From Methanobrevibacter millerae (lineage in GTDB: Archaea; Methanobacteriota; Methanobacteria; Methanobacteriales; Methanobacteriaceae), in the NCBI RefSeq assembly GCF_001477655.1, contig NZ_CP011266.1:914001-978000 (forward strand): a DNA stretch of 64,000 nucleotides, in the 5' to 3' direction. The notes under the pieces are model-generated. The model was not told where the DNA came from. It saw only the letters and a list, made by a program, of their open reading frames with translations, and searched no databases. The translations under genes and the position numbers were made by a program. Of the stretch, positions 28,079 to 32,947 are shown in pieces. Position 1 is the stretch's first letter; every line of letters begins with the position of its first letter.

Positions 28079-28447
28079 TATTTTTATTCTAAAAATTTGT
28101 AATTTTAATTTAATATTCATCTATTTTTATTATTTTTATTTTTAATACTTGTTTATACATCAAATTTGATATAATACTAGTTATAGTTATTTTTTTAATT
28201 TTGATAAATTGACTTATCGTAGTTGATGAAATCATATTCTTTAAACTTTTTATAGGTTATTTTAATAATATTATTGCTTATTTCATTATTTTCACATATT
28301 TTAACTGTTTATTTTATAAATTAGTCATGTTTACTACCTTTAAATAAATAAATAACTTTATATAAGATATTCTTAATATATTATTAACATAATGGAAAAT
28401 AGGATTTTTCCATAGTTGTGAAATACGTTATAAGGAGGTAAAGTATT
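28079..28447 (+). promoter_or_regulatory. AT-rich gap, promoter and hairpin leader of the giant surface protein
   Basis: 28079-28350 is AT-rich with no gene that I can see. TTTATATA near 28358-28364 is the likely TATA box, so transcription should begin near 28388. The roughly 60-nt leader starts with an 8-bp hairpin, ATGGAAAA (28392-28399) with TTTTCCAT (28406-28413), and ends in a strong Shine-Dalgarno, AAGGAGGT, at 28432-28439. The hairpin could affect message stability or translation; this is inference. Confidence 0.5.
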
Positions 28448-31400
28448 TTGAAAAAACGAATATTTGTAGCGTTAATGATATTGATTGCATTTTTGTCAAT
28501 CGGTGTTATTTCTGCAAGTGAAATAAGTGTTAATGATACCTATATTGGTCAAGATTCTTCTTCAGAATTATTGACTGTTGATAATGGAGTTATAGGATCA
28601 GATTCTTCAAATATCTTATCAACTAACAACGTTGATGCAAACTTGGATGAAAACACTATTGGTGCAAGTAATGAGTCTTCCACTAAGAAGGCCGTTTATA
28701 TAGAGGCACCGGATATTAATTTATATTATAAGAATGGAACAAGATTTGTGGCTAGTTTATTCGATGTAGATAATAATAAGTTAGCTAATCAAAGTTTAAT
28801 AATTAGTATTTCTGGAGTTAATTATACTAGAGTCACTGATGATAATGGTCAGGCTTCAATTGCAATAAATTTAATTCCAGGAGATTATGATTTTAATATT
28901 TATTATAATGGTAATGATAATTATTCAAGTGCTGAAACATCTGCTTCATGTTCAGTATACCCTACTATATCTGGTAATGATATGGTAAAATACTATAAAA
29001 ATGGTACTCAGTATTATGCAACATTTTTGGATGGTGATGGTTCTCCTTTAGTTAATGCTGATGTTACTTTTAATATTAATGGAGTATTTTATACTCGTAC
29101 TACAAATGCTAGTGGTGTTGCTAAGTTAAATATTAACTTACCACCTGATGAATATATACTTACTGCTATACATCCTGATACAGGTTATATGTATACCAAT
29201 ATTGTTGATGTATTATATACTATATATGCCGATAATTTGACTAAAATATATAAAGACTCTCATCAGTATTATGCTACATTTTTGGATGGTGATGGTTCTC
29301 CTTTAACTAATACTGATGTAATATTTAATATTAATGGAGTATTTTATACACGTACTACTAATAGTGAAGGTACAGCTAAATTAAATATTAACTTACCATC
29401 TGGTCAATATATATTAACAGCATATCATCCTAAAGATGAATCTAGATTATCTAGTATTATTAAAGTATTAGGTTCTTCAACTACTACCCTAAATATCACT
29501 GATTATGTATATGCTAAAAATGATGAACAGATTATTAATGTTACTTTACTTAATCAACTAGGTTATGGTATTGATGATGAAGTTGTTGTTGTTCATGTTG
29601 ATGGAACATCATATTCATTGGAAACTGGTAGTGATGGAACTGCAAGTGTGATGGTGGATTTATCTCCAGGTTTATATACTATTGATTATTCATATGATGG
29701 TTCAAATACATATTCATCATCAAAAGCAACTAGTACTATAGAGATTAATGATGGTGAAATTGCTCACTTTGATGCAAATGATACTGTTATATATTATAAT
29801 AATAGTGAGTCTTTTGATGTTACTGTGTTGGATGCAAATAATACTGCTGTTGTTGGTGAAAATGTTTCTTTCAAAATCAATGGTGTTACATATAAAAGAA
29901 TAACTGATGCAAATGGTACTGCAAAAATTAATATTAACTTAAATCCTGGAATTTATGATATTTCATATGAATTGATTAGTGATATCTATCAGGATATTAT
30001 AGGATCTTCACAAATTACTGTAATTGATGGTAATACATCTATATTAACTGGTTCAAATACCACAATTGGTAAAGATTCAGGTGAAAAATTCAAAGTTACA
30101 TTATCTGTAGGTGACATTGGTTTGCCTGATAGGAAAGTAATTATAAATATTAATGGTGTTAACTATACCAGAACTACTGATGATGAAGGTATTGCTGAAA
30201 TTACAATTAATCTAAATGTTGGAAATTATACTGCGAAATATTATTATTTAGGTGAAAACAGAATTAAAGCTTCTCAAGGTGAAGCGGTCATTACTGTAAA
30301 AGAAAGAATTCCAACTTCATTGACATGGCAATCTTCAAGTTCATTTATTAGTGATAGTGACATTATTTTAAAAACTTTATTGGTTGACAAAGACAATAAT
30401 CCTTTAGCCAATAAGGATATTGTATTCACAATTAATGCAAAAACTTATTTGACAACTACTGATTCAAAAGGTATTGCTAATGTAACTACCAAATTATCTT
30501 CAGGCAGTTATTTAATTTCATATAAATTTGATGGTGATCAAGATTATATCTCCAGTGAGGGTTCACATCAAATATCCGTTTCCAAATCACAAACTGGTAG
30601 AGGATTTGGTTATTGGTCATTTGGTGGAGACATGTATAATATTGATTTGAGTGAATTCTCAAGATTAGGTACTACTGACATATTGTTAAACTTCTATGCA
30701 TTTACTGCTCATGGTGAATCTGAAGTATTGTCATGGATTTCAAAAGCAAATTCCTATGGAATCAATGTACATATATGGATGCAAGTATTCTATAGTGGAG
30801 GTAGTTGGGTTAACCCTGTATCCGGAGGATCACCTAATCAGGCATATTTCAATGAAGTCATTGAAGAAGCTAAATATTATGCTGGATTACCTGGCGTGGC
30901 TGGAGTCCACTTTGATTATTTAAGATATCCTGGTAATGCTTACCAGACTACTGGTGGTACTGCCGCTATTACAGAATTTGTAAAACAGGCTACAACTGCA
31001 TGTCGTGAAGTAAATCCAAATATTATAATGTCTGCTGCTGTAATGCCAGAGACTAGTAGTGATATATATTATTATGGTCAGGACATTCCTGCTATTACAA
31101 AATATTTGGATGTAATTGTTCCGATGCAATATAAAGGAAACTATAATTCTGGCACTAGTTGGCTTGCTTCAACAACTAAATGGTTTGTACAAAACTCAAA
31201 TGGTGCTGAAGTTTGGTCTGGTTTACAATCATATGTATCAGATTCTAATACTGCTAAATTAACATACACTGAATTGTTCAATGATGCTCAAACTGTTGTT
31301 GACAGTGGTGCAGATGGAGTTATAATGTTTAGATTTGGTCTTTCTGTATTCTTAAACTTCAATGATTTGGATAATCCTTCATATGGTGATACTGTTGAGG

Positions 31401-32947
31401 TTAATGATATAGTGGACGCCGCTTCTAGATTGAAAGCATTTATAGAAACCAATAGGACTTTACCTACTAAAATTGCAGTTGGTACTAACTCATTTACTAT
31501 TCCTCAATTCCTATACTTGATGAGTGAAGCGTCATTGGTATTGAATGGTACAGAAAAGGATATTCTAGCAATATTAGTAGATGAACCTGAAAGCAATTCT
31601 GGTCATGTTATTTCTAGTGAATTGGATAAGGACGCATACTTGGCTGTTTCTCAAGTAATCAGTGATTATTGCTCCAAGAATAATCAGGCTCCAAATAATG
31701 TTACTACTCTTATTGGAGATATAAAATATGAATCCTTAGTATATATGTATTCCAGAATTTTAGCATATGTTGATAATGAATTGGAATTGCCTACATTGGT
31801 ATTGGTAAACAATTTCTTGGACAATCCAACTATTACAGTTAATATGCTTCCAAGTTATTCAACTGTTGATTATAAGTATATTAATTATACTACAACCTGG
31901 TTAAACTACTGTCCAAATTGTGAACATTATGGTACTTTACTCATCAATCCAAAAGGTACATATGAAGGTGAGTTAACTTGTTATCACTGTGATTGTGATT
32001 ACTGTGGTGTTACAGGTCATGAAAAAATCGAGGGTTCAGATTTAGTATTGACTAGACTTTCAGATTCTGTTCCTACTGATGCTAATGACTCTGATGATGA
32101 TGTATCTATCCTAAGTATTATTGGTGGTGCAACATATATAGCAGAATATTTCGCGGCAAATGAAACATTCCCTGACTATGTGGTAGTGACTGAAGGGAAA
32201 TATACTGTTCAACAATTCTTATACTTGATGAGTAAAGCTATTATACAAATTGATTCATCCAACTTTACTGATATTGAGTTGTTTGACTTTAGCGGTCCTG
32301 GAACTCCATCAGGTGATGCTGTAAATGGTAATTTATCTAAATCTGAATATATTGATGTGGCTAATAGGGTTGCTAACTTCATTATTAATAATGATTTAAT
32401 TCCAAATTATGCTTCATCAAACTTAGGTAAAATAGCATATTCCTCATTGGTTGATACATTTTCACGAGTATTGCAATATTATGGTGAGAAAGATGCATTG
32501 CCAAGTTCAATTCATGTTGAGTACACATCTCCTTCATCCAAATCAATTGCTGATTTATCTAAATCCTTGATTGCTGGTTTGACTTCTGTAAGAGATCAGG
32601 CTACTGCACTGTTTAATTATGTAAGGGATTATATCTCATATTCATTCTATTATAACACTCAAAAAGGTGCGGAAGGTACTTTAACTTCAGGTAGTGGTAA
32701 CTGTTGTGACCAGGCTCAATTGCTTGTTGCAATGGCAAGGTCTGTTGGTTTAACAGCTAGATTTGCTACAGGATACTGTACATTCTCCAGCGGTTCAAGT
32801 TATGGACATGTATGGGCACAAATCCTGGTTGACGGAGCTTGGATTAATGCAGATCCAACCAGTACAAGAAACTCATTTGGTGTAATTAACAATTGGAATA
32901 CTGGTTCATACACTGATAGAAGAACTTATGATATTTTACCTTATTAG
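28448..32947 (+). CDS. Giant surface protein: Ig-like repeats, GH-like barrel, pseudomurein-binding repeats, transglutaminase domain
   Basis: 1499 residues from TTG 28448. A signal peptide (1-24) is followed by about seven Ig-like repeats of about 85 residues (80-710). A TIM-barrel region (about 715-980) resembles putative glycoside hydrolases, with VHFDYLRYP around Asp823. Pseudomurein-binding repeats follow (about 985-1130 and 1215-1370, SRLKAFIETNRTLP...FLYLMSEA pattern), with a cysteine-rich knuckle between them (CPNC...CYHCDCDYC, 1155-1185). The C-terminal transglutaminase-like domain has a complete Cys1419-His1454-Asp1469 triad, as in pseudomurein endoisopeptidases PeiW/PeiP. A role in wall attachment and remodelling is inferred; cleavage is unproven. 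Confidence 0.85.
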   Translation: MKKRIFVALMILIAFLSIGVISASEISVNDTYIGQDSSSELLTVDNGVIGSDSSNILSTNNVDANLDENTIGASNESSTKKAVYIEAPDINLYYKNGTRFVASLFDVDNNKLANQSLIISISGVNYTRVTDDNGQASIAINLIPGDYDFNIYYNGNDNYSSAETSASCSVYPTISGNDMVKYYKNGTQYYATFLDGDGSPLVNADVTFNINGVFYTRTTNASGVAKLNINLPPDEYILTAIHPDTGYMYTNIVDVLYTIYADNLTKIYKDSHQYYATFLDGDGSPLTNTDVIFNINGVFYTRTTNSEGTAKLNINLPSGQYILTAYHPKDESRLSSIIKVLGSSTTTLNITDYVYAKNDEQIINVTLLNQLGYGIDDEVVVVHVDGTSYSLETGSDGTASVMVDLSPGLYTIDYSYDGSNTYSSSKATSTIEINDGEIAHFDANDTVIYYNNSESFDVTVLDANNTAVVGENVSFKINGVTYKRITDANGTAKININLNPGIYDISYELISDIYQDIIGSSQITVIDGNTSILTGSNTTIGKDSGEKFKVTLSVGDIGLPDRKVIININGVNYTRTTDDEGIAEITINLNVGNYTAKYYYLGENRIKASQGEAVITVKERIPTSLTWQSSSSFISDSDIILKTLLVDKDNNPLANKDIVFTINAKTYLTTTDSKGIANVTTKLSSGSYLISYKFDGDQDYISSEGSHQISVSKSQTGRGFGYWSFGGDMYNIDLSEFSRLGTTDILLNFYAFTAHGESEVLSWISKANSYGINVHIWMQVFYSGGSWVNPVSGGSPNQAYFNEVIEEAKYYAGLPGVAGVHFDYLRYPGNAYQTTGGTAAITEFVKQATTACREVNPNIIMSAAVMPETSSDIYYYGQDIPAITKYLDVIVPMQYKGNYNSGTSWLASTTKWFVQNSNGAEVWSGLQSYVSDSNTAKLTYTELFNDAQTVVDSGADGVIMFRFGLSVFLNFNDLDNPSYGDTVEVNDIVDAASRLKAFIETNRTLPTKIAVGTNSFTIPQFLYLMSEASLVLNGTEKDILAILVDEPESNSGHVISSELDKDAYLAVSQVISDYCSKNNQAPNNVTTLIGDIKYESLVYMYSRILAYVDNELELPTLVLVNNFLDNPTITVNMLPSYSTVDYKYINYTTTWLNYCPNCEHYGTLLINPKGTYEGELTCYHCDCDYCGVTGHEKIEGSDLVLTRLSDSVPTDANDSDDDVSILSIIGGATYIAEYFAANETFPDYVVVTEGKYTVQQFLYLMSKAIIQIDSSNFTDIELFDFSGPGTPSGDAVNGNLSKSEYIDVANRVANFIINNDLIPNYASSNLGKIAYSSLVDTFSRVLQYYGEKDALPSSIHVEYTSPSSKSIADLSKSLIAGLTSVRDQATALFNYVRDYISYSFYYNTQKGAEGTLTSGSGNCCDQAQLLVAMARSVGLTARFATGYCTFSSGSSYGHVWAQILVDGAWINADPTSTRNSFGVINNWNTGSYTDRRTYDILPY
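29011..29356 (+). repeat. Nearly identical Ig-like repeat units, 255 bp apart
   Basis: 29011-29101 and 29266-29356 match at almost every base, so two neighbouring Ig-like domains share the stretch QYYATFLDGDGSPL and the following NINGVFYTRTTN. The offset of 255 bp equals 85 codons. The other Ig-like units are more diverged, so this pair was duplicated or homogenised recently. Confidence 0.85.

Follow-up and report, generated by a model that had tools for sequence, protein, structure and literature searches.

A 64,000-nucleotide stretch of the Methanobrevibacter millerae SM9 genome (contig NZ_CP011266.1, positions 914,001 to 978,000; hereafter the window) encodes at positions 28448 to 32947 a protein that joins immunoglobulin (Ig)-like repeats, a glycoside hydrolase (GH)-like barrel, pseudomurein-binding repeats (PMBR) and a transglutaminase-like (TG) cysteine-enzyme domain. 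We propose that this is a secreted, wall-bound pseudomurein enzyme of the autolysin type in Methanobacteria, whose barrel would cut glycan and whose cysteine domain would cut peptide, a reading to which we give somewhat better than even chances. The protein is probably the cell's own wall-remodelling enzyme. Its barrel-PMBR-TG combination is old and class-wide and no peculiarity of the SM9 protein. The initial annotation, made from the sequence alone, had suggested a bifunctional enzyme attacking both glycan and peptide of pseudomurein; its observation is confirmed by our analysis and its interpretation partly supported.

As far as the accessible parts of the cited literature go, pseudomurein-cutting enzymes are peptidases (PeiW, PeiP and PeiR), and our search of that literature, short on subscription journals, found no described enzyme cleaving the pseudomurein glycan. 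In their accessible text, a 2025 survey reports only two homologs of peptidoglycan hydrolases in the pseudomurein classes (PMC12352652), and a 2025 paper on vesicles of M. smithii reports no (auto)lysin in them and suggests that wall-remodelling enzymes may differ from the characterised ones (PMC12134362). The barrel family described here is a nearly class-wide candidate for pseudomurein glycan cleavage, which would be a first, and for the methanogen autolysin. If the proposal is true, it would offer a handle on wall growth in rumen methanogens, an improved reagent for lysing methanogens in DNA work and genetics, and a means to recognise two-activity lysins of methanogen viruses.

Domain layout and distribution

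The open reading frame (ORF) occupies exactly positions 28448 to 32947 of the forward strand, and Pfam confirms the order of the domains that had been read as one protein: Ig-like repeats, DUF4015, PMBR and Transglut_core, each above its cut-off and all far beyond chance level. More specifically, the Ig-like family Big_3_5 scores 97 bits over seven stretches (E 9.1e-28); DUF4015, described as a 'putative glycosyl hydrolase' (PF13200), scores 32.2 bits against a cut-off of 27 at amino acids (aa) 786-906, which places the barrel within that family; PMBR (PF09373) scores 60.3 bits against 24.9 over four stretches, N-terminal to the catalytic domain; and Transglut_core (PF01841) scores 82.2 bits against 23 at aa 1369-1470. 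Three PMBR motifs are the minimum reported for optimal binding in the title of PMC3124540, and the SM9 protein has four. The features are as follows (positions in the window; HMM, hidden Markov model; AF2, AlphaFold2).

28434..28438, +, GGAGG, ribosome-binding-like site 5' of the TTG start (read from sequence)
28448..32947, +, whole gene, 1499 aa, TTG start (ORF list)
28448..28519, +, signal-peptide-like N-terminus, aa 1-24 (hydrophobic stretch read from sequence)
28685..30592, +, Ig-like stalk of about seven repeats (Big_3_5 and related), aa ~80-715 (Pfam and direct repeats)
30596..31378, +, DUF4015-type (beta/alpha)8 barrel, predicted glycan-cleaving, aa 717-977 (PF13200, AF2 model, Cwp19 structural match)
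30914..30916, +, D823 codon, invariant acid at the end of strand 4 (106/106 barrels; position from model)
31049..31051, +, E868 codon, invariant acid directly past strand 5 (106/106 barrels; position from model)
31403..31465, +, pseudomurein-binding repeat 1 (weak), aa 986-1006 (custom HMM)
31601..31705, +, pseudomurein-binding repeat 2, aa 1052-1086 (custom HMM, 46 bits; PF09373)
31910..32005, +, Cys-rich (zinc-ribbon-like) insert separating the PMBR pairs, variable among relatives, aa 1155-1186
32312..32416, +, pseudomurein-binding repeat 3, aa 1289-1323 (PF09373, best stretch aa 1293-1323; custom HMM)
32426..32506, +, pseudomurein-binding repeat 4, aa 1327-1353 (custom HMM)
32552..32857, +, transglutaminase-like cysteine-enzyme domain, aa 1369-1470 (PF01841; AF2 model)
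32702..32704, +, C1419 codon, nucleophile (invariant, 41/41 domains)
32807..32809, +, H1454 codon (invariant, 41/41 domains)
32852..32854, +, D1469 codon (at least 90% of 41 domains)

Within the genus, 63 of 67 genomes have the barrel. Across the class, it was found in 133 of 151 genomes, in 86 of the 91 that are most complete, and in all 20 genera. These counts cover genomes of the class only, and a phylum-wide search added none from outside it. In a control set of 14 well-known genomes, which serves as a weak outgroup, DUF4015 matched in one and PMBR in none. Among the best Methanobrevibacter hits, taken one per genome, 29 of 30 encode TG within the ORF of the barrel (the exception is L019). 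Barrel, PMBR and TG are joined in one ORF in nine of the 17 genera sampled through 40 fetched regions; these include genera of family f3 (L089, L093) and of family f4 (L091), the sole family outside the order. The barrel of genus g12 comes without PMBR and without TG.

Gene order around the locus is also shared. The same neighbours, thermosome and DtxR-like genes named by reading of their sequences, were found in seven of 14 relatives examined. The order is partly kept in two more (L031 and L039, where contig ends cut the region) and was not found in the remaining five (L086, L089, L091, L094 and L112). A recent fusion or chimeric artefact was rejected as an origin of the SM9 protein on two grounds, the recurrence of the same one-ORF order in nine of 17 genera and the orthologs at the same place in seven of 14 relatives.

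Fold and conserved residues of the two predicted catalytic domains

An AF2 model of aa 712-1499, built with 33 sequences, has a mean predicted local distance difference test score (pLDDT) of 87.2, with a predicted template modelling score of 0.51 that leaves the relative placement of the domains uncertain. The barrel is confidently modelled as eight alternating strands and helices, and this fold bears out the GH-like character first ascribed to it. Structures were compared with VIA-align, in which rows no more than one Z apart count as tied. The barrel is nearest to Cwp19 (5oq2_A, Z 23.0, root-mean-square deviation (rmsd) 3.4 Å, 255 aligned residues, 13% identity; 5oq3, Z 22.8), with PgaB second (4p7q, Z 22.3, rmsd 3.0 Å, 254 aligned), and chitinases and other barrels, including the spore cortex enzyme SleL (Z 19.8), next at Z of about 19-21.

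To compare residues, 106 distinct barrels were retained from 133 domain matches after removal of duplicates and of rows with fewer than 225 matched residues; loci L119, L124 and L126, found later, lie outside this set. D823, Y824, R826, E868, Q878, M893, Y895, W905 and Y929 are invariant in all 106, D888 occurs in 105 and D879 in 100. A barrel lacking catalytic acids had been named at the outset as a finding that would speak against an enzyme, and such acids were looked for; D823 and E868 are present in every barrel. In the model D823, E868, Y895 and Y929 lie at or just past C-terminal strand ends, with D823-Y824 closing strand 4 and Y895 immediately after strand 6. According to the accessible text of PMC5765458, the candidate active-site residues of Cwp19 include Asp196-Tyr197, which follow strand 4, and Tyr297, where strand 6 ends, and a glycine occupies the place where a strand-7 glutamate is usual. 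From the modelled positions we infer that D823-Y824 and Y895 of the SM9 barrel correspond to Asp196-Tyr197 and Tyr297.

The fold resembles that of GHL10 (PF02638), a family to which the SM9 protein gives no match at E-values up to 10 and hence none above the membership cut-off. The GH18 motif is D-x-D-x-E. Membership of GH18 (PF00704) was rejected for the SM9 protein, which has no PF00704 match and in which the catalytic glutamate is out of place: HxDYxRYPG stands after strand 4, and a profile alignment to SleL sets a leucine opposite the glutamate. Its relative L091 passes the Pfam cut-offs for GH18 (39.6 against 29.6 bits), DUF4015, PMBR, Transglut_core and C71 (23.7 bits), and lies narrowly under that for GHL10 (27.3 against 27.9 bits). 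Passing those cut-offs together and just missing GHL10, L091 connects these families. Another relative, L086, passes C71 at 24.6 bits.

In the C-terminal domain the triad Cys1419/His1454/Asp1469 is intact in a transglutaminase fold, as the initial annotation had stated, and its numbering is right by the positions of the motifs (SGNCCDQ from 1416, YGH from 1452, INAD from 1466). Across 41 TG/C71-type domains C1419, D1421 and H1454 never vary, and at least 90% conserve D1469. A separate AF2 model of this domain (pLDDT 88.7) has a top group of tied structural matches comprising TglA (9crn, Z 13.3), 3isr (Z 13.1), PeiP (8z4f_B, Z 12.8, rmsd 2.5 Å, 130 aligned), PeiW (8jx4, Z 12.7) and 3kd4 (Z 12.3), with animal transglutaminases lower at Z 9-10.4. 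The likeness to PeiW and PeiP first noted holds for the layout, in which PMBR accompany a cysteine-enzyme half, and Foldseek ranks PeiP first for the whole model (8z4f_A, E 1.2e-11). It does not extend to the family: the C71 (Pei, PF12386) model scores 19.4 bits, below its 22-bit cut-off, and plain C71 membership was rejected for that reason. Our custom C71 and TG profiles cross-recognise each other's domains, and each domain is labelled here by the higher score. By sequence, cutting and cross-linking are indistinguishable; fold and triad suit both directions.

Viral and bacterial relatives of the barrel

Eight distinct viral or proviral-looking loci, from viral searches and from two proviral-looking stretches of cellular genomes, carry the barrel, and in all eight it is fused with (seven) or adjoins (one, L063) a C71- or C39-like domain. 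L057/L115 encodes barrel, PMBR and C71 (44.1 bits); L062, L075, L116, L119 and L126 encode barrel, PMBR and a C39-like domain; L124 encodes Ig, barrel, Ig and a C71-like domain in a single ORF; and in L063 an Ig-barrel gene is followed 83 bases on by an Ig-C71-like gene. The C71-like domains of L063 and L124 are named by identity to L057 (for L063, 38% over 143 residues) or by profile score, not by Pfam, and L116 alone among the C39-like domains passes Pfam (27 against 22 bits). For the C39-like lysin domain of L062 (10944-11429) the best solved relative is 22oc, named only 'P210 WT' (E 2.6e-22).

The barrel genes of L057 and L062 stand behind genes with tail-family matches, and an integrase gene lies downstream in L062, L063 and L075. 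PHROGs gave no match for the C71-like gene of L063, for the lysin of L075 or for the genes that precede the lysins of L075 and L116 on their upstream side; L116 is presumed to be proviral from the type of its lysin (phrog_6007 endolysin, 20.4 bits) and from its resemblance to L062 and L075. A scan of viral sequences with the L057 barrel gave 33 pattern hits and no relative. In a careful tree of 46 rows, seven viral barrels form one clade (100/100), with L126 as a lone long branch.

PeiW and PeiP (C71) and PeiR (C39) are described as lytic enzymes in the accessible text of PMC6189367. Since lysins must break the wall, the repeated pairing of the barrel with two types of wall peptidase is our best argument that the barrel, too, acts on pseudomurein. 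The pairing thereby lends support to the two activities envisaged in the initial annotation, each of which is a prediction.

The barrel also occurs on rumen contigs labelled as bacterial. Five distinct bacterial barrels form one clade (100/100) nested in a Methanobrevibacter clade of barrel-PMBR-TG proteins (98/97), and because of this nesting the barrel was probably transferred from archaea to rumen bacteria, where it may be an anti-methanogen enzyme. G+C content is 58-62% in the bacterial barrel genes and 59-66% in their contigs, whereas the methanogen and virus loci that were measured have 30-34%. On six rumen contigs with bacterial labels the barrel is present and both PMBR and TG are absent (L041, L043, L044, L045, L047 and L048); the labels are Kiritimatiellae, Lentisphaerae, Verrucomicrobia, Coriobacteriaceae and uncultured bacterium, and a signal-like N-terminus precedes the barrel in at least some.

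Proposed role, alternatives and related proteins

As the best explanation of the observed architecture, conservation, fold, distribution and viral pairings, we infer two activities, the bonds they cut and a role in growth. The Ig-like repeats would serve as a stalk and the PMBR would keep the protein on pseudomurein. The glycan backbone of pseudomurein consists of N-acetylglucosamine and N-acetyltalosaminuronic acid; the DUF4015-type barrel would cleave this strand by means of D823 and probably E868. The isopeptide cross-links would be cleaved by the Cys-His-Asp domain at the C-terminus. A single protein could in this way open both parts of the wall polymer in growth, division or vesicle release, and viruses would employ this barrel-PMBR chassis, combined with a C71 or C39 peptidase domain, as a lysin.

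Several points weigh against this autolysin-type role. The enzyme activities of the barrel and of the TG domain are predictions from sequence and model. The chemistry of the barrel is unsettled, as the GH18 catalytic glutamate is not in place and the catalytic pair of Cwp19 is itself uncertain, and all six barrels of genus g12 lack D932. PMBR and TG are both missing from the stretch examined around 52 of the 106 barrels, some of which are truncated by locus ends. A tblastn search with the barrel found no match among 50,697 deposited phage genomes. In sequence the TG domain resembles general Transglut_core (82 bits) more than C71, for which it is below the cut-off, and in fold TglA and 3isr tie with the Pei enzymes. 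Finally, the accessible text of a 2025 paper proposes that the exported transglutaminases of group OG0000044 form, rather than cut, pseudomurein cross-links (PMC11915815).

The last points lead to a reading that we consider rather unlikely, in which the barrel cuts glycan and the TG domain is a transpeptidase forming Glu-Lys cross-links in new pseudomurein. Cys-His-Asp enzymes can run either reaction through an acyl-enzyme, Transglut_core gives the domain a higher score than C71 does, and OG0000044 is named as the best cross-linking candidate in the accessible text of PMC11915815. Speaking for cutting, the viral chassis, whose sole aim is destruction, bears C71- or C39-like domains, and in fold the TG domain is level with PeiP and PeiW (Z 12.7-12.8), above the animal transglutaminases. 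An unlikely extension, to which we give still less credence, makes the protein a growth machine: the barrel, as founder of a family cleaving the pseudomurein glycan, would open strands that the TG domain re-links, and viruses and rumen bacteria would have captured the barrel. If so, the viral barrel would be half of a lysin and the rumen bacterial barrel a secreted anti-methanogen enzyme, and such a cut-and-link enzyme would be even more remarkable than an autolysin.

Adhesin-like display without wall cutting, with the barrel as a sugar-binding module and the TG domain as a covalent anchor to the wall or to partners, seems to us improbable. The long Ig-like stalk and the fit to the group-III 'transglutaminase-type' adhesin-like proteins (PMC11532034, accessible text) are in keeping with it, and same-fold chitinase-like lectins are among the structural matches of the barrel. 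Against this, all 106 barrels have invariant acids of catalytic type, the stalk is absent from most viral forms, which are paired with lytic types of peptidase, and no Ig family was matched by Pfam in the relatives L091, L094 and L102. Use as a weapon, that is, a secreted wall hydrolase for competition with other methanogens, is highly improbable in our view: the protein looks secreted, and rumen bacteria took up the barrel alone, possibly for attack, but housekeeping fits better with a barrel that is near-universal in the class and sits at the same chromosomal place in seven of 14 relatives, and no immunity-like neighbour was noticed at the locus.

Compared with known systems, the SM9 protein shares with PeiW and PeiP, C71 pseudomurein endoisopeptidases of Methanothermobacter viruses from a family that hydrolyses the epsilon(Ala)-Lys isopeptide bond, the order of PMBR and then a C-terminal Cys-His-Asp domain of transglutaminase fold; unlike it, these are viral and, as described, have neither barrel nor Ig stalk. 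PeiR, from an M. ruminantium provirus, combines PMBR with C39 as do the viral relatives L062, L075, L116, L119 and L126; as described in the accessible text (PMC6189367) it has two PMBR and a peptidase and no barrel, whereas the SM9 protein has TG in place of C39. Cwp19 of C. difficile is, in the accessible text of PMC6016235, a secreted lytic transglycosylase with a GHL10 domain and three CWB2 repeats that acts in autolysis. Like the SM9 protein it is secreted, joins a barrel to wall-binding repeats and places an Asp-Tyr pair behind strand 4 and a tyrosine behind strand 6; it differs in its bacterial murein substrate, in its CWB2 repeats and in the lack of a cysteine domain. The C-terminal domain of PgaB, a poly-GlcNAc glycosidase of family GH153, has the same fold as the SM9 barrel (Z 22.3). 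PgaB is a periplasmic exopolysaccharide enzyme, and a counterpart of its strand-7 glutamate was not located in the SM9 barrel.

Among methanogen proteins, the group-III adhesin-like proteins of M. smithii and Methanosphaera have an N-terminal membrane segment, Ig-like repeats and PMBR beside a C-terminal TG domain, and the SM9 protein, with its N-terminal hydrophobic segment, Ig-like repeats and PMBR plus C-terminal TG, fits this layout as given in the accessible text of a 2024 survey (PMC11532034). That text places the TG and PMBR adhesin-like proteins of M. smithii and M. stadtmanae in group III with no mention of a wall-enzyme role; a single M. smithii protein is recorded there as having a 'putative glycosyl hydrolase domain', and whether it is the TG/PMBR protein is left unstated. 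The survey already lists the domain types of the SM9 protein, each in few proteins. The OG0000044 transglutaminases are, like the SM9 protein, exported proteins of pseudomurein archaea; a barrel goes unmentioned in the accessible text (PMC11915815).

Variant forms were also observed. In genus g5 (L097) a TG gene and two PMBR-barrel genes are adjacent yet separate, a split form of the fused protein, and many Methanobrevibacter genomes have a tandem gene pair with a C-terminal barrel and no PMBR or TG (L042, L049, L050, L052-L056). The insert at aa 1155-1186, an extracellular CxxC...CxxCxCxxC, occurs in some orthologs (for example L003, L005, L010, L014, L016 and L096) and is unmatched in others. 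The SM9 genome encodes a second protein, of 1148 aa, with PMBR and TG and no barrel (L079, C1:1888500-1896500).

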